Positions 29,173-38,628 of a stretch of DNA of 64,000 nucleotides are shown here, in pieces. The stretch's first letter is position 1. Each line of letters begins with the position of its first letter. The translations under genes and the position numbers were made by a program. The stretch is from Geothrix sp. PMB-07. Lineage in GTDB: Bacteria; Acidobacteriota; Holophagae; Holophagales; Holophagaceae. The notes under the pieces were generated by a model that worked only from the letters and a program-made list of their open reading frames with translations, had not been told where the DNA came from and searched no databases. The stretch is taken from the NCBI RefSeq assembly GCF_030758935.1, contig NZ_CP132333.1, positions 4,154,992-4,218,991 of the forward strand. The letters run 5' to 3'.

Positions 29173-30135
29173 TCACTTCCCCTGATGGACCTTCTTCACC
29201 ATGTAGCGGGGACGGTCCCGCACTTCCTGGTAGATGCGGCCGATGTACTCGCCCAGCAGGCCGAAGGCGATGAACTGGCAGCCTACGAAGAAAAAGAGGA
29301 TGGCAAAGAGCGTGAACACGCCCTGAGCCGTGCCCTCGGGGTGCATGAAGCGGTAGACCACCAGGCCCAGGAACAGCAGAAAGCCGAAGGCCGCGGTGAT
29401 CACGCCGAACACACTGAGGGCCTGCAGGGGCAGAAGGCTGAAGCTGGTGAGCAGGTCGAACTGGAGGTTGATGAGCTTCCAGAGGCCGTACTTGCTCTCC
29501 CCGGCGGCGCGCTCGGCGTGGGCCACAGGCACTTCGGCAATGCGCTTGGCGAAGCTGTTGGCCAGGGCCGGAATGAAGCTCGAGCGCTCCTTGCACAGCA
29601 GCATGGCGTTTACCACGTCGCGGCTGTAGGCGCGCAGCATGCAGCCGTAGTCGTGCATCTGCACGCCCGTGGTGCGCCGGGTGATGGCGTTCACGATCTT
29701 GCTGGGCATGGTGCGGAAGAAGCTGTCGTTGTTCTGGCGGCCCTGGCGCCAGCCCCCCACAGCGTCGTAGCCCTCCTCCACCTTGGCGACCAGCTTGGGG
29801 ATCTCCTCGGGCGGGTTCTGCAGATCGGCGTCCATGGTGACCACGATCTGTCCCCGGGCCTCGGCAAAAGCCCCGAAAATGGCGCTGTGCTGACCATAGT
29901 TCCGGTTGAACTCCACCACCTTCACCCGGGGTTCGGCCTTGGCGATCTCGACGAGCATGGCCAGGCTCCGGTCCCGACTGCCGTCATCGGTGAAGACGAT
30001 CTCCCAGGACTTGTCCGGATCCGTGAAGGACTCAGCCATCACCTTGGACAGACGTTCCCACAGCGAAGGAATGTTCTCCTGCTCGTTGTAAATGGGGATG
30101 ACGATGCTGAGGTAGGGATTGGAATGGACGTCCAT
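29173..30135 (-). CDS. Polyprenyl-phosphate glycosyltransferase (GT2, ArnC/GtrB-like)
   Basis: 320 residues. The GT2 catalytic domain covers 1-220, with LSIVIPIYNEQENIP, FTDDGSRDRSLA, NRNYGQHSAIFGAF and MDADLQNPPEEIP (DxD). Two C-terminal transmembrane hairpins (about 235-262 and 270-297) end in EYIGRIYQEVRDRPRYMV, the family signature. Such enzymes move a sugar, often 4-amino-arabinose formate, glucose or mannose, from a nucleotide donor to undecaprenyl phosphate at the inner face of the membrane. The sugar cannot be told. No modification operon surrounds it. Confidence 0.9.
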   Translation of the reverse strand: MDVHSNPYLSIVIPIYNEQENIPSLWERLSKVMAESFTDPDKSWEIVFTDDGSRDRSLAMLVEIAKAEPRVKVVEFNRNYGQHSAIFGAFAEARGQIVVTMDADLQNPPEEIPKLVAKVEEGYDAVGGWRQGRQNNDSFFRTMPSKIVNAITRRTTGVQMHDYGCMLRAYSRDVVNAMLLCKERSSFIPALANSFAKRIAEVPVAHAERAAGESKYGLWKLINLQFDLLTSFSLLPLQALSVFGVITAAFGFLLFLGLVVYRFMHPEGTAQGVFTLFAILFFFVGCQFIAFGLLGEYIGRIYQEVRDRPRYMVKKVHQGK

Positions 30136-30191
30136 GAGCGCTCCGGAGGGTCCATTCTAGTAGGATCAAAGCCTGCGCATTGGAGTCAGTC

Positions 30192-30911
30192 ATGGCCGAG
30201 CCCAAGATCCTGCTGGTGGAAGACGAGCTCAGTCTGGCCGAAGGCATCAAGCTCAACCTCGAGTTGGAAGGCCTTTCCTGCACCTGGATTCCCCGCGGCG
30301 ATCAGGCTTTGAAGCAGATCCTGGCCGAAACCTACGACCTGGTCATCCTCGACGTCATGCTGCCCGGCATGGACGGGTTTACGATCTGCGAAAAGGTGCG
30401 CGAGGCCAAAAACTTCACGCCCATCCTCTTCCTCACCGCCAAGAACACGGATGATGACCGCGTTCACGGCTTCGAGACCGGCGCCGACGATTACCTGGGC
30501 AAGCCCTTCCAGGTGCGCGAACTCCTGCTTCGGGTGCGCGCCATCCTGCGGCGCGAATCCTGGTACAAGAGCCGCGAGATCAGTAGCCGCCAGGTCTATG
30601 GCGCCTACTGGGTGGACTTCGACAACTTCTGCGGTGAGGGCCCCAGCGGCCCCTTCCAGCTGGGCGTCAAGGAATCCATGATCCTCAAGCTGCTCATGGA
30701 GCGGCCCGGCCAGGTGGTGAGCCGCACCGACATCCTGGACAAGGTGTGGGGCGAGGACGCCTATCCCACCAGCCGCACGGTGGACAATTTCATCGTCCGC
30801 ATTCGCCGCGTCATGGAGGATGATCCCCACCATCCGCGGTGGGTCCACACCATCCGCAGCGTGGGCTACCAGTTCGATCCCGAAGGCAAGCAGCGTAAGG
30901 GTGAAGAATGA
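30192..30911 (+). CDS. OmpR-family response regulator
   Basis: 239 residues from ATG at 30192; an ATG at 30180 is also in frame. The receiver domain has the acidic pair in LLVEDE, the phospho-acceptor Asp54 in LVILDVMLPGMDG, Thr in FLTAKN and Lys in YLGKPF. The C-terminal winged helix ends with VWGEDAYPTSRTVDNFIVRIRRVMEDDP and VRSVGYQF-like IRSVGYQFD. No histidine kinase gene is adjacent, so it is an orphan in this window. A strong terminator follows immediately. Confidence 0.92.
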   Translation: MAEPKILLVEDELSLAEGIKLNLELEGLSCTWIPRGDQALKQILAETYDLVILDVMLPGMDGFTICEKVREAKNFTPILFLTAKNTDDDRVHGFETGADDYLGKPFQVRELLLRVRAILRRESWYKSREISSRQVYGAYWVDFDNFCGEGPSGPFQLGVKESMILKLLMERPGQVVSRTDILDKVWGEDAYPTSRTVDNFIVRIRRVMEDDPHHPRWVHTIRSVGYQFDPEGKQRKGEE

Positions 30912-30941
30912 AAAAGGGGGCGCCAAGGCGCCCCCTTTTTT
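30911..30941. terminator. Bidirectional terminator between convergent genes
   Basis: Stem gggggcgcc / ggcgccccc with a short aa loop, flanked by five A and six T. It can stop the response regulator (+) and the exported-protein gene (-). Confidence 0.88.
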
Positions 30942-30953
30942 GCAGAATTTCCT

Positions 30954-32069
30954 CTACTTGACGTCGTAGTCCCTACTGCGACCGAGCTTCTGGAAGAGGG
31001 CCGCCTGATCCGCGAGGCTGGCCGGGGCGGGGCCCTGCTTCACATCGGCGAGCACCGCGCGCTTGTCTTCCCCCTTGCTGAACTTGCTGTCGCCGAGCAC
31101 CGGTTCGAAGGTGGGCAGGGGGACCAGCTCAGGGGCAGGGCCTTCCGGCGCCTTGGAGCCCACAATGTCGGCAGCCTTGGTCAGGAGGGTGGCGCCACCA
31201 CTCAGGCGGCGCACATCCAGCCAGCCGAAACCCGGGTCGCGCAGCAGCTCAAGGTCATCCTTTTCCAACCAGGCCGACAGGTCGTTCAGGGCCTTGACCT
31301 GGACGGGATCCGGCAGACGGCGGGTCTTCTTCTCACCCTTCACCTCCACCTCCTGAGTCGTGTTTTCAACCCAGGCCTGGGCCCGTTTCACCCACAGGGC
31401 CGTGATGGCCTTCTGGCCCGCGAAGCCCTCGGGTGCCTTGGGGCCTTTCACGGCCTTGGCCTTCTTTTTCCCCTTGGCCGGTGTTTCAGGTTCGGCCCAG
31501 CTGGGCGCGGTGGCATCCACCTTGGCATCCAGGAGCAGGCCCTTGATCTTGGCCAGGCGGGGCTCCAGACCCTTGGGCCCGGTTTTCGCTGCGGCACGGG
31601 CCGCGGTTTGCAGATCCTTCCAGGTGCTTTCGAGCAGGAGCTTCTTGCCCTCGGCATCGTAGAGGCCGTGGTTGGCGTTGAATTTGGCCAGGTAGGCCTC
31701 GACGGGGGCCAGGGCGGCAGAGGCCTTTTCAGGAATGTCCAGCTTGGCCTTCACCAGCGCTTCCAACGCCTCGCGCACTTCCAGGGCCCGGGGGTGGCTG
31801 CGGTAGTAGCCCAGCTCATGGGCGGAAAGCGCGGCGCGATGCAGCGTGTAAGCCAGTTTCCGCTGGGTGGGACGAAGCTGATCGAAGGCCTTCGGTTCGG
31901 CGGCCTTGGGCTCGGTCGCCTGAGGTGCCACCGGGGGCTCCTGGACCGCCTCAGCGGGTTTGGTTTCGGGGGCCGGAACCTGAACCGGCGTGGCCGGGGG
32001 TTCCTGCGGGGGCGTCTGGGCCAAAAGGCCCGAGGCCACGATCAGGGCCATGACCCAGTGTCGCTGCAT
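30954..32069 (-). CDS. Exported Ala/Pro/Lys-rich protein, possible M49 N-terminal-like domain
   Basis: 371 residues. After a signal peptide (1-18) comes a Pro/Ala/Glu-rich linker to about 62. A helical domain follows, with RKLAYTLHRAALSAHELGYYR and FNANHGLYDAEGKKLL. These lines recall the N-terminal lobe of M49 dipeptidyl-peptidase III-type proteins, but the HExxGH zinc motif is absent, so enzymatic activity is not expected. A Lys-rich insert (KGKKKAKAVKGPK) interrupts the middle. It ends convergent with the response regulator. The function is unknown. Confidence 0.5.
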   Translation of the reverse strand: MQRHWVMALIVASGLLAQTPPQEPPATPVQVPAPETKPAEAVQEPPVAPQATEPKAAEPKAFDQLRPTQRKLAYTLHRAALSAHELGYYRSHPRALEVREALEALVKAKLDIPEKASAALAPVEAYLAKFNANHGLYDAEGKKLLLESTWKDLQTAARAAAKTGPKGLEPRLAKIKGLLLDAKVDATAPSWAEPETPAKGKKKAKAVKGPKAPEGFAGQKAITALWVKRAQAWVENTTQEVEVKGEKKTRRLPDPVQVKALNDLSAWLEKDDLELLRDPGFGWLDVRRLSGGATLLTKAADIVGSKAPEGPAPELVPLPTFEPVLGDSKFSKGEDKRAVLADVKQGPAPASLADQAALFQKLGRSRDYDVK

Positions 32070-32126
32070 AGATGACTCCTCGGTGAAGGTGCTATGGAAT
32101 GCCCCAGTATGCAGCAGGGGACAAAC

Positions 32127-34508
32127 TCACGCCTCGACCGGAGTCTCTAGGAGCCGCTCGAGACTTTGCTTGAGTTGCTTTAGATCAAAAGGCTTACCCA
32201 GGTAGGGCACCTGGCTGGCCTCCAGGAACTCCCGCGTCTTCACATCAAAGGAATCGCCCGTGGTGTAGAGGATGCGCCGGGTCATGGCCGGGCGCTGGGC
32301 CTTCAGCCAGTCGAAGAGATCCACGCCTGAAAGGCCGGGCATGCGGATGTCGGACACGATGACGTCGAAGCTGCCAACCTCCAGCTTCTGGATGGCCTCG
32401 TCGCCGCGGGGGCTGGATTCCACCTCCATACCCCAGGCGCTCAGGGCGTCCACCAGGCACTCCAGCAGGAAGCTTTCGTCATCGACCACCAGGGCCCTGG
32501 TGCCCTTCAGCCCCGGCGGGGGAGCGGGTGCCGCTGCGGGTTCCTTCACCGCCACGAGGGGAAGCTCCAGCAGGAAGGCGTTGCCCAGGCCTTCCTGGCT
32601 GCGGGTGCTGATGCGGCCCCCGTGCTGGCGCGCGATGATGTCGGCGATGGGCAGGCCTAGGGCCTCCGTGGTGGTGGCCTGAGCGGGGTCAAACAGCTCC
32701 GCCTGCCGTGCTTCACCCACGGCCGGGCCCGTATCCTGGACCACCACCTGCAGGGTTTCACCAGAGACCCGGGTGGCAACCCGCAGCCGCTTGATGGGGC
32801 TCAGCGCCATGGCCTGCAAGCCGTTCAGGAGGAGGTTGGTGAGAGCCTGGACAAGAAGCCCCGGATCCAGGGCGGTCTGGGGCAGTGCCGGATCCAGGTT
32901 CAGCTCCACCGAGGCACCCATGCGCTGCGCCTTCGCATCCACCAGGGCGGTGGCCTCCTGCACCAGGTCGTTCACCCGCACCGGCAGGGGCCTCGGGCTG
33001 GGCGGATTCAGAACCGTCTGCAGGGGATGGAGGAGGCTCTGGATGGAGTCCACCGCCTTGACCAGGCGGGCGGCCTGCTCGGCCTGGTGGGGATCCATGG
33101 AGGATTCGGCGATGAGCCGCGATTCCAGCAGCACCGGAGTCAGCCGGTTGGCCGCCTCGTGGAAAAGGGAGGGCACCAGACGTCCCAACGCTTCGTGCTT
33201 CTGGGAATGGACCAGCTGCTCCTGCAGTTCCTTGTGCTCGGACACATCCCGCACCAGGGCTGAATAGGCCAGCACGCGCTCGTCATTGCCGCGGACCGGC
33301 GCATAGGTGATGTTGGCCGGGAAGGTCACGCCCCCCTTGCGCAGCCGGGTGGTGGCCATGTCGCGAACCACCTGGCCGCGCCCCACCTGCTGGGCCACCT
33401 GATCCAGCTCCGTCAGCAGGTGGTCCGGCGTCAGCTGAGCCATGTTGCGGCCCACGATTTCCGGGCGCGAATAGCCGAAGATGCGTTCCGCCGCCATGTT
33501 CCAAGTCAGGATCTTGCCATCTGGAGCATAGGAGATGACGGCTTCGCCGATGTTCTGCACCAGGCCTTCGAGGTAGCGCCGGGTCTTCAGGTTGTCCTGG
33601 TTGGCGCGGTCCAGCTGGGTGTAGAGCTGGCTCAGCTCCTCGTTCTTCTTTTCCAGTGTGTCCTTGACCTGCTTCAGTTCGGAATAGAGCCGCGCCGTTT
33701 CCATGTTGGATTTGAGCGCGTCTTCCAGCAGGTCTTGGGCATCGGCCACCTTGCCGGGTGTCAGGTCCGCCACGCTCACATTGCTGTGCCGGAGCACCGT
33801 GGATTCCACGGGCGGAACGAGCGGTGCCTCCTGGGGCTGAGGCAGCTCGCGCATGCTTGATCGCACATTGGATTCGATGAGATTCAGCATCTCGTCGAAA
33901 TCCTTGATCTTCTTGTCGAGGTGGTACTTCTTGAAGGTGTAGCTGACGGTTTCGCGGGTAATGGAAAGGAAGGTGTCCAGCACGCCGGTGCCCCGGTTGG
34001 CCACGGATTCGAAGTAGGGCACGCTGCGGAAATTGAGGCGGCGGTTCATGACGCCCACCGCCAGCGCGTCGGGCAGATCCCGCTTGTTGTACTGAATGAC
34101 AAAGGGGATCTGCTTGATGTTCAGGCGATTCGCGTTGAGGTTGTGGTACAGGTTCGACAGCGAGTCCACGTTGTCCTGCATCTTGGCTTCACTGGAATCC
34201 GCCACGAACACCACACCATCGGCGCCGCCCAGCACCACGCGGCGGCTGGCATCGTACTGCACCTGGCCGGGCACCGTGTAGATCTGCAGATGGATGGCGT
34301 TGCCATAGATGTAGCCCAGGTTGATGGGCAGCAGGTCGAAGAACAGCGTGCGGTCTTCCTGGGTGTTGACCGAGAACATCTCGCCGCGCTGAGCATCCGA
34401 GCACATGGCATGCAGCGACTGCAGATTCGTCGTCTTTCCCGACAGACCTGGTCCGTAGTAGACCAGCTTGAGCAGGATCTCATTGGCACGGGTGTTGAAC
34501 TGAACCAT
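32127..34508 (-). CDS. MglA-type GTPase fused to PAS, histidine kinase and receiver domains
   Basis: 793 residues in one frame. Residues 1-200 are an MglA/Ras-like GTPase: P-loop GPGLSGKTTN at 19-28, a PGQ switch II at 80-82 and NKRD at 141-144. A coiled coil spans about 255-305. A PAS domain covers about 310-425 (GEAVISYAPDGKILTWN, ERIFGYSRPEIVG). The kinase core has a possible phospho-acceptor His450 in SLFHEAANRL, an N-box (TNLLLNGLQAM, 557-567), G1 (QDTGP) and G2 (ALGLPIADI). A receiver covers about 670-790 with Asp676/677, Asp720 and Lys772. MglA normally sets cell polarity as a separate protein. Here the switch and a hybrid kinase share a chain, so the nucleotide state may directly gate kinase output; that is inference. 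No MglB gene is in view. Confidence 0.9.
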   Translation of the reverse strand: MVQFNTRANEILLKLVYYGPGLSGKTTNLQSLHAMCSDAQRGEMFSVNTQEDRTLFFDLLPINLGYIYGNAIHLQIYTVPGQVQYDASRRVVLGGADGVVFVADSSEAKMQDNVDSLSNLYHNLNANRLNIKQIPFVIQYNKRDLPDALAVGVMNRRLNFRSVPYFESVANRGTGVLDTFLSITRETVSYTFKKYHLDKKIKDFDEMLNLIESNVRSSMRELPQPQEAPLVPPVESTVLRHSNVSVADLTPGKVADAQDLLEDALKSNMETARLYSELKQVKDTLEKKNEELSQLYTQLDRANQDNLKTRRYLEGLVQNIGEAVISYAPDGKILTWNMAAERIFGYSRPEIVGRNMAQLTPDHLLTELDQVAQQVGRGQVVRDMATTRLRKGGVTFPANITYAPVRGNDERVLAYSALVRDVSEHKELQEQLVHSQKHEALGRLVPSLFHEAANRLTPVLLESRLIAESSMDPHQAEQAARLVKAVDSIQSLLHPLQTVLNPPSPRPLPVRVNDLVQEATALVDAKAQRMGASVELNLDPALPQTALDPGLLVQALTNLLLNGLQAMALSPIKRLRVATRVSGETLQVVVQDTGPAVGEARQAELFDPAQATTTEALGLPIADIIARQHGGRISTRSQEGLGNAFLLELPLVAVKEPAAAPAPPPGLKGTRALVVDDESFLLECLVDALSAWGMEVESSPRGDEAIQKLEVGSFDVIVSDIRMPGLSGVDLFDWLKAQRPAMTRRILYTTGDSFDVKTREFLEASQVPYLGKPFDLKQLKQSLERLLETPVEA

Positions 34509-34630
34509 GGGTTCGCCAGGAAAAATGTGGAGACCAGCCTAACACGGAGGGCCGGGCTGCAAGCCGCCACACCATCTCTACGGCAAGCCCCGTGCTAGCA
34601 TGACCTTTTTCACCCTTTTGAGGTTTCCAG

Positions 34631-34773
34631 CGCGATGACCGTTCCTACCGAGGTCGCCATCATCATCTCGGTATGCCCTCTGGGCATACGCGAGGCCGAC
34701 CACGCGGCATCTGCCCGGAATTGCCCAGCTTTGAGCCCGCGATGACCGTTCCGACCCACGTCGCCATCATCAT
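34631..34773 (+). repeat. Direct duplication of the uppS start region with a palindrome between copies
   Basis: A 36-bp segment at 34631-34666 recurs at 34738-34773 with three mismatches, offset 107 bp. Both copies contain an ATG and the codons for MTVPTxVAII. Only the second leads into uppS; the first runs out of frame to a stop. Between them stands a perfect palindrome, gtatgccc-tct-gggcatac (34671-34689). The first copy looks like a decayed tandem duplicate. Confidence 0.75.
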
Positions 34774-35428
34774 GGACGGCAACGGCCGTTGGGCTGCTCA
34801 GCGGGGGTGGCCCCGCATCAAGGGGCACAAGGCCGGGGTCCTGGCCGTGGAGCGCATTCTGGAGGCCGCGGCAGACGCCGGCGTCCAGCATCTGAGCCTC
34901 TACGCCTTCTCCACGGAGAACTGGAAACGGCCAGCCTTGGAAGTGGGGGCCCTCATGGCCCTGCTGCGCATGTACTTGCGCATGTTCCTCCACAAGCTCG
35001 CCAAAAAGGGGATCCGGTTCCACCACCTGGGCTCCCCGGAGGGCATGCCCTCGGGAATCCTGGCGGACATGAAAACCCTGGAAGAGGCCACCGCCAAGAA
35101 CACCGGCATGACCTTCCACCTGGCAGTCAACTACGGCTCCCGGCTCGAACTGGCCCAGGCCGCCCGGCGCTGCGTGGAAGAGAGCCTCCGCCCCGACCAG
35201 GTGGATGAAGCCGCCCTGCAGGCCCGGCTTTGGACCGCTGGAGTACCCGATGTGGACCTGCTCATCCGCACCAGCGGTGAGCACCGCATTTCCAACTTCC
35301 TGCTCTGGCAGTCCGCCTACGCCGAACTCTACATGACCGACCTCCTCTGGCCCGACTTCGGCCCCGCCGAGCTGAGGGCCGCACTGGAGGATTACGCCCA
35401 GCGCGAACGCCGCTTCGGGGGGATCTGA
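34742..35428 (+). CDS. uppS: Undecaprenyl diphosphate synthase
   Basis: 228 residues from ATG at 34742. The signature MDGNGRWAAQRG near the N-terminus carries the catalytic Asp; LSLYAFSTENWKRP, NYGSRLELAQAA, DLLIRTSGEHRISNFLLWQSAYAELY and LWPDF are all present. It condenses isopentenyl units in the cis configuration onto farnesyl diphosphate to make the C55 lipid carrier for cell-wall synthesis. An ATG at 34673 in the same frame is not used, because conservation begins at 34742. Its stop overlaps the start of cdsA (TGATG). Confidence 0.96.
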   Translation: MTVPTHVAIIMDGNGRWAAQRGWPRIKGHKAGVLAVERILEAAADAGVQHLSLYAFSTENWKRPALEVGALMALLRMYLRMFLHKLAKKGIRFHHLGSPEGMPSGILADMKTLEEATAKNTGMTFHLAVNYGSRLELAQAARRCVEESLRPDQVDEAALQARLWTAGVPDVDLLIRTSGEHRISNFLLWQSAYAELYMTDLLWPDFGPAELRAALEDYAQRERRFGGI

Positions 35429-36315
35429 TGGAACGCACCACACCCAAGGTGGACACCCGCAACATGACGGTGCGGATCACCACCGCCGCGGTCTTCGGGC
35501 TGTTCTTCTTCAGCCTTCTCTGGTTCGGCGACCAGCCTTGGGCCCCGGGGACCTACCTCGCCGTCATGGCCGCGGCCATCCTCATGGGTGTTCGTGAAAT
35601 GACGCTCATGGCCCGCGTGCGGGGCTTCAACCCTTCGCTGGTGTCCGGCGTCCTGGTGGCCTGGGGCATCATGCTCCACTTCTATTTCGCCACCGGCAAC
35701 CAGGACCCCCTGCCGCTCTGGCTGGTCTTCACCCTCGGCGGCTTGCTCATCCACTTCGGCGCCCTGTTCTTCGACGCCAAGCTGGAAGACGCCCTTCCGA
35801 GCCAGGCCATCACCTGGCTTGGCGCCCTCTACCTGGGTTTCGGCCTGGGCTTCCAGCAGAAGCTCTTCATGCTGCAGGGCACCCTGCCCAAGACCGGCAG
35901 CCGCCTCATCCTGTCGCTCTTCATCATCACCTGGTTCGGTGACACAGCCGCCTATTTCGTGGGCAGCTACTTTGGACGCCACAAGCTGGCCCCCAAGGTG
36001 AGCCCCAAGAAGAGCTGGGAGGGCGCCTTCGGCAACCTCGGCGGCAACTTGCTGGGCGCTTTCCTCATGAAGGCCACGGTCTGCCCCGAGTGGTCTCTGG
36101 TGGACATCTTCGCCCTGGCCCTGCTGCTGGGCACCGTGGGCCAGCTGGGCGATCTCGTGGAAAGCACCTGGAAGCGCAGCGCCGGGGTGAAAGATTCCAA
36201 CGCAGGCAATGTCTCCATTCCCGGTCACGGCGGCATGTTGGACCGGGTGGACAGCCTGGTGTTCGCGGCCCCGGCCCTCTACGCCTACGTCCACTTCGTG
36301 CACGGATTCAACTGA
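35428..36315 (+). CDS. cdsA: Phosphatidate cytidylyltransferase
   Basis: 295 residues with about seven transmembrane segments. The conserved C-terminal block GDLVESTWKRSAGVKDSN followed by IPGHGGMLDRVDSL is the CdsA signature (the S..KR....KD...PGHGG..DR.D pattern). It forms CDP-diacylglycerol from CTP and phosphatidic acid in the inner membrane. It lies between uppS and dxr, an arrangement common in bacteria. Confidence 0.95.
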   Translation: MERTTPKVDTRNMTVRITTAAVFGLFFFSLLWFGDQPWAPGTYLAVMAAAILMGVREMTLMARVRGFNPSLVSGVLVAWGIMLHFYFATGNQDPLPLWLVFTLGGLLIHFGALFFDAKLEDALPSQAITWLGALYLGFGLGFQQKLFMLQGTLPKTGSRLILSLFIITWFGDTAAYFVGSYFGRHKLAPKVSPKKSWEGAFGNLGGNLLGAFLMKATVCPEWSLVDIFALALLLGTVGQLGDLVESTWKRSAGVKDSNAGNVSIPGHGGMLDRVDSLVFAAPALYAYVHFVHGFN

Positions 36316-36316
36316 G

Positions 36317-37471
36317 GTGCGAACCCTCGCCATCCTCGGCTCCACCGGGAGCATTGGCACCTCCACACTGGACGTGGTGCGGGCCCACCCCGAGCGGCTT
36401 TCGGTGGTGGCCTTGGCGGCGGGGCGCAACCGGGAGCTGCTGAAGGCCCAGTGCGAAACCTTCCGCCCCCGCTGTGTCTCCGTGGGCACTCGCGAGGATG
36501 CGGACTGGCTCCGCTCCAACCTCTCGTACCGCCCTGAGGTTCACTGGGGTGGCGAGGGGCTCTTGGCCTGCGCCCTTCATGCCGAGGCCGATACCGTGGT
36601 GGCCGCCATTGTGGGCAGCGCGGGGCTGGCCAGCACCGAAGCGGCTCTGCGCGCTGGTCGGCGGGTATGCGTCGCCAACAAGGAATCCCTGGTAGTGGGC
36701 GGGGCCCTCATGCATGAGGCCGCCCTGGCCGGGGGGGGCGAACTGCTCCCCGTGGACAGCGAGCACGCCGCCTTGCATCAGCTGCTGGAGGGTCGCGATC
36801 CCGCCACCATCCGGGAAGTGCGCATCACCGCCAGCGGGGGCCCCTTCCGGGACTGGCCTCTGGCCCAGATCCAGACCGCCACCGTCGACCAGGCCCTCAA
36901 CCACCCCACCTGGAAGATGGGGCCCAAGATCACCATCGACAGCGCCACCCTCATGAACAAGGGGCTGGAGGTCATCGAAGCCTCGGTGCTCTTCGGCCTC
37001 TCGGCCGACCAAGTCGCCGTGACCGTGCACCCCCAGAGTCAGGTGCACGCCATGGTGGGCTTCCATGACGGCAGCTACCAGTTGCAGGTCTGCGCCAACG
37101 ACATGAAGCTGCCCATTCAGTACTGTCTGCTCTATCCCGAGAAGCAGCCCGGCCCCGTGGCGCCCTATCCCTGGGACGCGGCCCGCCAGTGGACCTTCGA
37201 GGCCCCGGATCTGGAGCGCTTCCCCTGTCTGGGGCTGGCCTTCCAGGCCCTGCGCGCCGGAGGCACCGCCCCGGCCCTGTTGAATGCCGCCAACGAGGTG
37301 GCCGTCGCCGCCTTCCTACAGGGAAGACTGGGCTTCTGGGATATCCAGGCCTGCAACCACGAAACCTTGAGCCGCATTCCTGCCACGCCCCTGGGGTCCT
37401 TGGCCCAAGTGCTGGATGCGGATGCGACCGCAAGGCGTCATGCTGAAGGTTGGGTCCACGCCCGGGCCTGA
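36317..37471 (+). CDS. dxr: 1-deoxy-D-xylulose 5-phosphate reductoisomerase
   Basis: 384 residues from GTG at 36317, one base after the cdsA stop codon; an upstream in-frame ATG lies inside cdsA. The NADPH motif GSTGSIGTSTLDVV is at the N-terminus, then ANKESLVVGG, DSEHAALHQ (the usual Ser after DSEH is Ala here), ASGGPFRD and MNKGLEVIEA. It makes 2-C-methyl-D-erythritol 4-phosphate in the MEP route, supplying precursors to UppS. Confidence 0.95.
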   Translation: MRTLAILGSTGSIGTSTLDVVRAHPERLSVVALAAGRNRELLKAQCETFRPRCVSVGTREDADWLRSNLSYRPEVHWGGEGLLACALHAEADTVVAAIVGSAGLASTEAALRAGRRVCVANKESLVVGGALMHEAALAGGGELLPVDSEHAALHQLLEGRDPATIREVRITASGGPFRDWPLAQIQTATVDQALNHPTWKMGPKITIDSATLMNKGLEVIEASVLFGLSADQVAVTVHPQSQVHAMVGFHDGSYQLQVCANDMKLPIQYCLLYPEKQPGPVAPYPWDAARQWTFEAPDLERFPCLGLAFQALRAGGTAPALLNAANEVAVAAFLQGRLGFWDIQACNHETLSRIPATPLGSLAQVLDADATARRHAEGWVHARA

Positions 37472-37485
37472 CTTTTCGGACATCC

Positions 37486-38628
37486 ATGAACCGCCACCGC
37501 CTGCCTCTGACCCTCTGCTTGTCCCTCGTCGCGCTGTTCGCCCTGAAGGTGCCGGGCGCCGGTTTTTGGGGGCCCATCCTCATGCTGGGCGGCCTCGTCT
37601 TCCTGCACGAGGGCGGCCACTTTCTCGCCGCCAAGTACATGGGCATGCCCGTGGAAGTCTTCTCCTTGGGCTTCGGCCCGCGCCTGTTCGGCTTCAAGTG
37701 GCGGGAGACCGACGTGCGTCTCTCCGCCCTGCCCCTGGGCGGCTACGTAAAACTGGCGGGCTTCAATCCCGAGGACCCCGGTGCCGACGATCCCTATGGT
37801 TTCCTTCAGCAGCCCTTCGGCAAGCGCATGCTCTTCTACAGCGGCGGCATCCTCGCCAACCTGGCGACCAGCCTTATCCTGTTCACAGCCGTCCGCGCCG
37901 ACCAGGCACGCATCATCAAGGCGGAACCCCGGCCAGGGTCGGCCATGGTAGTTGATCAAGTGGCCAAAGGCATGCCTGCTGATGTAGCCGGCCTCCAACC
38001 GGGGGACGAATTGCGCCGCGTCGGTCACATCCTTTTCCCCTCCGGCCGGTGGGAAGATGCAGTGGCCTATATCAAGACCCATCCAGCTCAGCCCATCGCC
38101 GTTGAAGTACTCAGGGAAGGCAAGTTGCTTTCTTTCTCCGTGACTCCCACCAATGAAAACGGCGTAGGCCGTGTTGGGGTCGGAAGCCTGCCGATGTCTT
38201 ACGATTTTCAACGAAGGCCCCTCCAAATGGGCGACCTTCTGACCGGTGGACGCATTGCCATTGAAGACTCCTGGCACATGAGTGGCCAAGTGTTCGGTTT
38301 TCTCAAGAAACTCGTCACCTTCCAGGCACGGAGCGCCGAGGTGTCGGGACCCATTGGCATCATCAAAGCAGGCAGCCGGGCCGCCAAGTCTGGCTGGCAG
38401 GAATTTCTCATCATGTGCGGTGCCATCAGCCTGCAGCTGGGCATCCTCAACGCCCTGCCCATTCCCGCCCTCGACGGTGGCCACATGGCCCTGCTGGTTT
38501 TTGAAAAACTGCGGCGGAAGGACCTCACCATCGAGCTCAAAGAGAAGATCCTCACCGGCGGTTTCCTGCTGCTGGCCTCCCTCATGGCCCTGGTGATCGT
38601 CATGGACGTGCTTAAGCTCAGGAAGTAG
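37486..38628 (+). CDS. rseP: Site-2 intramembrane metalloprotease RseP
   Basis: 380 residues from ATG at 37486. The zinc site HEGGH is in the first transmembrane segment (about 36-40), the third ligand Asp in NALPIPALDGGHM, and one PDZ domain lies at about 140-230 (GMPADVAGLQPGDEL). Escherichia coli RseP has two PDZ domains; here one is seen. It cleaves anti-sigma factors and leftover signal peptides in the membrane. The 3' end overlaps the convergent kinase gene by 11 bp. Confidence 0.93.
   Translation: MNRHRLPLTLCLSLVALFALKVPGAGFWGPILMLGGLVFLHEGGHFLAAKYMGMPVEVFSLGFGPRLFGFKWRETDVRLSALPLGGYVKLAGFNPEDPGADDPYGFLQQPFGKRMLFYSGGILANLATSLILFTAVRADQARIIKAEPRPGSAMVVDQVAKGMPADVAGLQPGDELRRVGHILFPSGRWEDAVAYIKTHPAQPIAVEVLREGKLLSFSVTPTNENGVGRVGVGSLPMSYDFQRRPLQMGDLLTGGRIAIEDSWHMSGQVFGFLKKLVTFQARSAEVSGPIGIIKAGSRAAKSGWQEFLIMCGAISLQLGILNALPIPALDGGHMALLVFEKLRRKDLTIELKEKILTGGFLLLASLMALVIVMDVLKLRK

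Follow-up and report, generated by a model that had tools for sequence, protein, structure and literature searches.

A 64,000-nucleotide stretch of the genome of the soil bacterium Geothrix sp. PMB-07 (contig NZ_CP132333.1, positions 4,154,992 to 4,218,991; referred to here as the window and numbered from its first base) contains a gene whose product combines an MglA-type GTPase domain, a long helix, a PAS domain, a degenerate histidine kinase module (DHp-CA) and a C-terminal receiver in one chain (Table 1). This fusion is a genuine single gene, and its conservation in the Holophagaceae is meaningful. Of all the parts of the chain the GTPase is the one most clearly protected from change, and the DHp-CA kinase, judged from its sequence, is probably crippled. 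We consider there to be an even chance that the protein is a single-chain regulator under the control of its PAS domain and receiver, with the MglA-type GTPase as its output and the kinase turned into a scaffold that reads the receiver or into a phosphatase.

A conserved fusion gene with an intact GTPase

The fusion gene is encoded on the minus strand from a start at position 34508 to position 32127, as 793 codons without a stop. Pfam matches above the cut-offs were obtained at residues 313-422 (PAS), 548-651 (HATPase_c) and 673-783 (Response_reg), and HisKA was not detected in the protein by Pfam at E 0.1. An initial annotation of this DNA had proposed a single-chain fusion of these parts, and its GTPase with an intact P-loop, PAS domain and receiver are indeed joined within the 793 residues, but the kinase core that it described is incomplete. 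The same annotation had allowed for a frameshift or an assembly error having joined two genes, and for similar fusions being absent from relatives. Near-full-length matches were found in 43 of the 61 same-family genomes (own genome included), among them Geothrix fermentans, G. limicola and G. terrae; five more matched only to residue 652-670, and the rest gave partial matches or none. In addition, of 41 same-family loci, 40 have uppS divergently adjoining the fusion gene, and the one exception (L048) stops at a contig edge. We therefore rejected an erroneous joining of two genes, for which the remaining probability is negligible, because full-length relatives and the uppS context are both conserved. 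In a sample of the phylum, 27 of 199 genomes had matches at E 1e-60, with the full-length ones all from the Holophagaceae. Among the best 80 loci the named relatives were G. fermentans, G. oryzisoli, G. terrae, G. paludis, G. limicola and uncultured Holophagaceae, together with the more distant Acanthopleuribacter pedis.

For comparisons within the family and beyond, 84 sequences were collected and 65 rows retained once sequences that duplicated another throughout their first 400 residues had been removed, with N-terminal extensions ahead of residue 1 trimmed. The same protein was met under two labels in several instances (e.g., L007/L176, L025/L165, and L052/L185), and some kinase-less candidates from the 61-genome search (e.g., G019 and G012) lie outside the row set. 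A midpoint-rooted tree was produced from residues 1-432 of 64 rows, excluding L189, which is cut by a contig end. The kinase motifs were checked in 57 kinase-bearing rows, 48 with a receiver and nine without.

The N-terminal part of the fusion is matched by Pfam Ras and Arf just above their cut-offs, and phmmer with residues 5-188 identified MglA of Myxococcus xanthus and Thermus as the closest solved structures (E 2e-56 to 6e-50). Residues K25, R53, T54, T78, Q82, and N141 are invariant in all 42 aligned sequences (own included), in keeping with the intact GTPase of the initial annotation, and all 42 have the marks of MglA, namely the P-loop Lys, the switch residues Arg53/Thr54, TVPGQ with Thr78 and Gln82, and NKRD; the P-loop string GPGLSGKTT is complete in 41. 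Three of these residues (R53, T54, and Q82) are described as switch residues of M. xanthus MglA under the same numbers (PMC6876712), as is T78 (PMC3000849). Of the 195 positions of the domain, 149 are invariant (37 sequences over 740 residues), and the domain is 50% identical to the canonical MglA of the same genome. Within the genus of the window it has the lowest median ratio of non-synonymous to synonymous substitution rates (dN/dS) in the chain, 0.057 vs. 0.15-0.37 for the other regions (PAS 0.239, DHp 0.154, CA 0.372, and receiver 0.225).

MglA itself is a single domain of ~195 residues (150-240 by the size criterion of PMC4316618) that is usually coupled to MglB, whereas the 793-residue fusion extends 600 residues beyond this length and is not accompanied by a nearby MglB. 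The main published survey of the MglA family excluded sequences longer than 240 residues (39/488 in the MglA clade, its table 1; PMC4316618), and as long proteins were set aside there the long class may be under-described; the same source describes orphan MglA proteins without mglB. That MglB is missing nearby, as had been noted at the outset, was borne out: a profile search gave no Robl_LC7/MglB match in the window, and the sole match over the cut-off in the genome, at 475 kb, adjoins a separate canonical mglA. A second match, below the cut-off, lies outside the window at 4,048 kb. The fusion thus lacks the close coupling to mglB, only a few genes apart, that marks the family. Three further MglA-type genes are present in the genome, one of which belongs to the canonical mglB-mglA pair at 475 kb. 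The other two encode proteins with C-terminal tails, of 308 and 477 residues in all (L003 1447-2373 and L004 1501-2934, respectively), and the latter protein is proline-rich.

AlphaFold2 modeled residues 257-319 as one long helix linking the GTPase and the PAS domain. A single model was produced (mean predicted local distance difference test score 69.1, predicted template modeling score 0.37), in which the relative placement of the domains is without meaning. Its GTPase part was poorly modeled, probably as a consequence of the alignment hardly varying there. A fold search with the model was dominated by histidine kinases and receivers and was silent on the GTPase and PAS domains; for residues 444-651 the top rank was DivL (4q20_B, Z 22.6, root mean square deviation 5.6, 203 residues aligned), tied with HK853 and ZraS.

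The kinase module and the receiver

The G1 and G2 boxes of histidine kinases have the forms DxGxG and GxGxG, which agree with the sequence of ZraS in our alignment. The window protein has DTGPA at G1 and EALGLPI at G2, and hence neither complete motif; relative to ZraS its H box is kept and its G2 loop is two residues shorter and without the first glycines. This condition extends beyond the window protein, as the complete G2 glycine motif is present in 0/57 kinase-bearing rows, with the third Gly (position 620) absent from every one, and the second Gly of G1 is absent in 48/48 receiver-bearing rows and kept in five of the nine receiver-less rows. The initial annotation had suggested that the GTP/GDP state could directly control phosphorylation, a proposal that presumes a working kinase and is weakened by these losses.

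As a yardstick, DxGxG was present in 85 of 90 HATPase_c domains in the genome (the three of 93 matches that fell below the cut-off were left out). A GxGxG pattern matched 81 of them, a count in which all GHKL types are included and false matches are possible, since the pattern is loose and its match in the window protein is a false one, farther downstream. Apart from the window protein, one HATPase_c domain in the genome (L154) has neither motif. Mean conservation of CA, 0.674, is the lowest among the folded domains of the fusion.

The remaining kinase residues differ in their retention. At the phospho-acceptor position the 48 receiver-bearing rows have His (36) or Asn (12), and the nine receiver-less kinase rows have His in one and another residue in eight; the 36 His rows comprise one well-supported clade (100/99) that includes the window protein. 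Among the 48 rows with a receiver, 43 have the acidic E451 and three more have D there, and N562 is kept in the window protein. Its H450-E451-A-A-N454 conforms to the H-E/D-x-x-T/N pattern of DHp domains. In the DHp region, only four of 73 positions never vary among the 48 rows that have a receiver, and N454, four residues past the His, is one of them, the 12 rows with Asn for His included; it is absent in all nine receiver-less kinase rows. In HisKA proteins (CrdS, HK853, and others) the phosphatase reaction is reported to require the Thr or Asn at the matching place, which the kinase reaction can do without, and the acidic residue next to the His is reported to be required by the kinase reaction alone (PMC3510030). 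The same 48 rows all keep L456 and nine CA positions, the D/D/D/T/K residues of the receiver and 38 receiver positions in total. We regard the association of N454 with the receiver as a lead and no proof.

Seven of the 64 rows have the GTPase, a long linker and the PAS domain, but neither kinase nor receiver, which requires at least two changes on the tree. By comparison, the GTPase is present in every row examined, and all rows reach the PAS domain except L189 with its contig-end cut. Five of the seven represent a distant group, and two (L182 and L052) lie inside the family. L182 adjoins uppS, cdsA and the same glycosyltransferase, and L052 adjoins uppS and the glycosyltransferase; as both sit at the conserved place beside uppS, we take them to have lost the kinase and receiver. 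It was also considered that the kinase had moved to a separate downstream gene, and this was rejected because the next open reading frame encodes no kinase in five loci: it begins ~60 bases past the gene in L182 (peptidase M49) and L052 (the same protein as L185; glycosyltransferase), and encodes an MMPL transporter in L191 and L037 and CrcB in L209 (kinases farther off were not sought). The sequences of L190 and L192 end 214 and 404 bases past the gene, and are uninformative in this respect.

Neighboring genes and related fusions

Table 1. Features of the fusion gene and its neighbors in the window.
Feature	Position	Strand	Basis
Whole fusion gene, 793 residues: MglA-type GTPase, long helix, PAS, DHp-CA (degenerate), receiver	32127..34508	-	Open reading frame, Pfam, phmmer, relatives
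MglA-type GTPase domain, residues 1-195; K25, R53, T54, T78, Q82, N141 kept	33924..34508	-	phmmer, alignment
Long helix (probable coiled coil), residues 257-319	33552..33740	-	AlphaFold2 secondary structure
PAS domain, residues about 312-426	33231..33575	-	Pfam PF00989 E 4.7e-14, residues 313-422
DHp region, residues about 432-500; H450 (codon 33159-33161), E451, N454 (codon 33147-33149)	33009..33215	-	Alignment, model
CA (HATPase_c), residues about 506-655, degenerate G1, no complete G2	32544..32993	-	Pfam, alignment
Site of the G2 box in its degenerate form, TTTEALGLPIAD, residues 612-623	32640..32675	-	ZraS alignment, two-residue gap at glycine loop
Receiver (REC), residues about 671-788; D676, D677, D720 (codon 32349-32351), T750, K772	32145..32498	-	Pfam PF00072 E 8.7e-19
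OmpR-type response regulator (receiver and Trans_reg_C), 243 residues, possible partner	30180..30911	+	Pfam
Gene directly downstream, 371 residues, N-terminus resembling a signal sequence, without a match to Pfam at E 0.01	30954-32069	-	Pfam scan
uppS, divergent neighbor, conserved context, not part of the machine	34673..35428	+	Pfam E 1.4e-79; 40/41 loci

The OmpR-type response regulator is convergent with the fusion and the 371-residue gene behind it, and lies 1.2 kb from the fusion. It was matched at 79-97% over at least 235 residues in the loci of 20 relatives (L055 and L175 being the same region twice), and in part in further loci whose flank ends there. The regulator is also kept beside the kinase-less L182 (83%), and therefore does not depend on the kinase module. 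None of the ten neighbors scanned around the fusion is a kinase gene, and ~8 kb separate the regulator from the closest HATPase_c domain elsewhere in the genome. The 371-residue downstream gene is conserved beside the fusion in the genus; in L182 the corresponding position is occupied by a longer gene that matches peptidase M49 and is ~27% like it. A tandem near-copy of the uppS start region lies ~107 bases from the original (34630-34775; 92% alike over 36 bases), and a short palindrome separates the two; several copies were seen by eye in the nearest relative (L006, 3980-4360), and there was no other copy in the genome at E 0.01. Rfam gave no match at 30000-38000.

Outside the family, the GTPase-PAS-kinase form occurs without a receiver (L047, L184, and L186-L188). 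Other Acidobacteriota have an MglA-type GTPase followed by GAF and an intact HisKA-HATPase_c (L039, L042, and L045), and one Aminicenantes genome has an MglA-type GTPase with HisKA-HATPase_c and no called sensor (L211). Like the window fusion, these four are single chains in which a long middle part separates an MglA-type GTPase from DHp-CA, but their H, G1 and G2 are intact and they have no receiver, whereas the window fusion has degenerate G1 and G2 and a receiver; they represent the better place to test a GTPase driving a kinase. With L042 as a query for the GAF type, matches were obtained in 4 of 199 phylum genomes at E 1e-70, one of them in the kinase part only. Of other MglA-kinase fusions, L040 has Gln for His and L046, by eye, is without an H box. 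MglA-type GTPases with tails holding no clear other domain were also seen in Nitrospirota and Zixibacteria. Six proteins, mostly from Nitrospirota (L194, L195, L196, L198, L202, and L222), have an MglA-type GTPase and a tail of ~110-450 residues with no other Pfam domain above the cut-off. Among the papers listed in a literature search, judged largely by titles and abstracts and covering few subscription journals, there was no account of a fusion of MglA with a histidine kinase.

Three described systems bear comparison with the fusion. DivL of Caulobacter is a PAS and DHp-CA protein whose core is described as being without autokinase function and as reading the receiver DivK (PMC4211667), and it has the PAS plus DHp-CA arrangement in common with the fusion, in addition to being the top-ranked fold match. 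In DivL, according to the same source, Tyr replaces the His, the N, G1, F and G2 boxes are kept and the receiver is a separate protein; in contrast, the fusion has degenerate G1 and G2, a receiver within the chain and an attached GTPase. The DivL-type mark, a Tyr (or in rare cases an Ala) replacing the His alongside otherwise retained boxes, is thus lacking in the window protein, which keeps its His. In the actinobacterial conservons an MglA-family GTPase (CvnD) is coupled to a histidine-kinase-like protein (CvnA), together with the roadblock protein CvnB and CvnC (PMC13343842, PMC4316618); these are four separate proteins, described without a response regulator, whereas the fusion is one chain with no roadblock protein. 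Finally, RomR of Myxococcus is a receiver protein that governs the MglA GTPase (PMC3441718, PMC9481161), described as a separate protein that is an exchange factor together with RomX, whereas in the fusion the receiver is covalently joined to the GTPase with PAS and DHp-CA between them.

Direction of signaling and its meaning

In the interpretation that we favor, the chain would probably be dimeric, with the GTPase as output and, as inputs, the PAS domain and the C-terminal receiver, the latter phosphorylated in trans by another kinase. DHp-CA would have lost its ATP-dependent autokinase activity largely or wholly, and would serve as a scaffold that docks the receiver and perhaps dephosphorylates it; the state of the receiver would then be passed through the PAS domain and the long helix to the GTPase. 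The signal would thus probably run toward the GTPase and not from the GTPase to the kinase, a direction that fits better because the residues of the GTPase and receiver are conserved and the kinase motifs are missing. Similarly, the GTPase is read as the output, and the PAS domain and receiver as inputs, because the GTPase is always present and the kinase and receiver can be missing. We infer the dimerization, the direction of signaling, the docking or phosphatase activity and any role in polarity, the last of these only from likeness to MglA, and DivL and RomR serve as analogies. That the flow is reversed in full, with the crippled kinase reading, possibly dephosphorylating, its own receiver and setting the state of the MglA-type GTPase, is a more tentative proposal that we consider possible but doubtful; its basis is the replacement of the His by Asn in several genera and the retention of the phosphatase Asn, N454, wherever a receiver is present.

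Several observations weigh against the favored interpretation. Retention of H450 in all 36 rows of the clade of the window protein means that low kinase activity is possible there, and weak or relay activity in this clade is compatible with the sequences. Likewise, some members of the family may still bind nucleotide, as the receiver-less rows keep the N-box Asn (9/9) and the second Gly of G1 (5/9), and fusions with intact H, G1 and G2 do exist (L039, L042, L045, and L211). DivL is an imperfect precedent because its N, G1, F and G2 boxes are all retained and it is described as lacking phosphatase activity. Relaxed selection on CA was considered as evidence of kinase decay and dropped: an intact PhoR-like control kinase of the same genus has the same order of domains (PAS-like 0.164, DHp 0.102, and CA 0.235), and the CA rate alone is consequently no sign of decay. 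In other genera the dN/dS of DHp is 0.60, a figure without a control; two further control kinases were unusable, L086 (most matches at ~41% identity) and L068 (matched in its own genome only). The link between the receiver and N454 holds in both of the independent contrasts that the tree allows (sign test p 0.5), and with only two it cannot reach significance. Moreover, five distant receiver-less rows have a gap of ~27 columns in the DHp alignment beginning near N454, so that this column is firm only in the four near receiver-less rows (L048, L049, L058, and L179). The distant group of five kinase-less rows, on the midpoint-rooted tree, could be one in which a kinase was never present. It is possible that the OmpR-type regulator is a partner or phosphate acceptor of the fusion; its conservation speaks for some phosphotransfer or phosphatase link.

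The last point leads to the alternative in which the GTPase is the input and its GTP/GDP state controls a working hybrid kinase, with its own receiver or the OmpR-type neighbor as the recipient of the phosphate. H450, E451 and N562 of the window protein, the proximity and conservation of the regulator gene, and the intact MglA-kinase fusions of other Acidobacteriota and Aminicenantes would all be consistent with it, but we consider it unlikely given the incomplete G2 in all kinase-bearing rows, the missing second Gly of G1 in all receiver-bearing rows and the replacement of His by Asn in 12 of these, as well as the absence of the kinase from seven rows and the persistence of the regulator beside one of them. 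If instead the DHp His served as a relay in the clade of the window protein only, taking phosphate from the receiver in reverse or from a partner kinase with no ATP use of its own, the presence of His throughout that clade despite a degenerate G2, next to an intact receiver, would be explained; we judge this rather improbable, as the other 12 receiver-bearing rows maintain this fusion although they have Asn instead of the His. It is also feasible that DHp-CA is only a decaying spacer and dimerizer without a receiver-related function, with the work done by the GTPase, long helix and PAS domain. The rows without kinase and receiver and the low conservation of CA are in line with such decay, and the invariance of N454, L456, nine CA positions and 38 receiver positions points to a kept function, making a mere spacer quite unlikely in our view.

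Two-component systems and Ras-like GTPases are known to meet in bacterial signaling, in the described systems compared here through separate proteins. The single chain that carries both in the Holophagaceae permits a direct question in vitro, namely the effect of receiver phosphorylation on GTP hydrolysis or exchange, and the stepwise decay of the kinase motifs beside a nearly unchanged GTPase offers a natural series for the change from enzyme to scaffold. If the reversed flow of signal proves true, the fusion would give bacteria an equivalent of a receptor-coupled G protein within one polypeptide.

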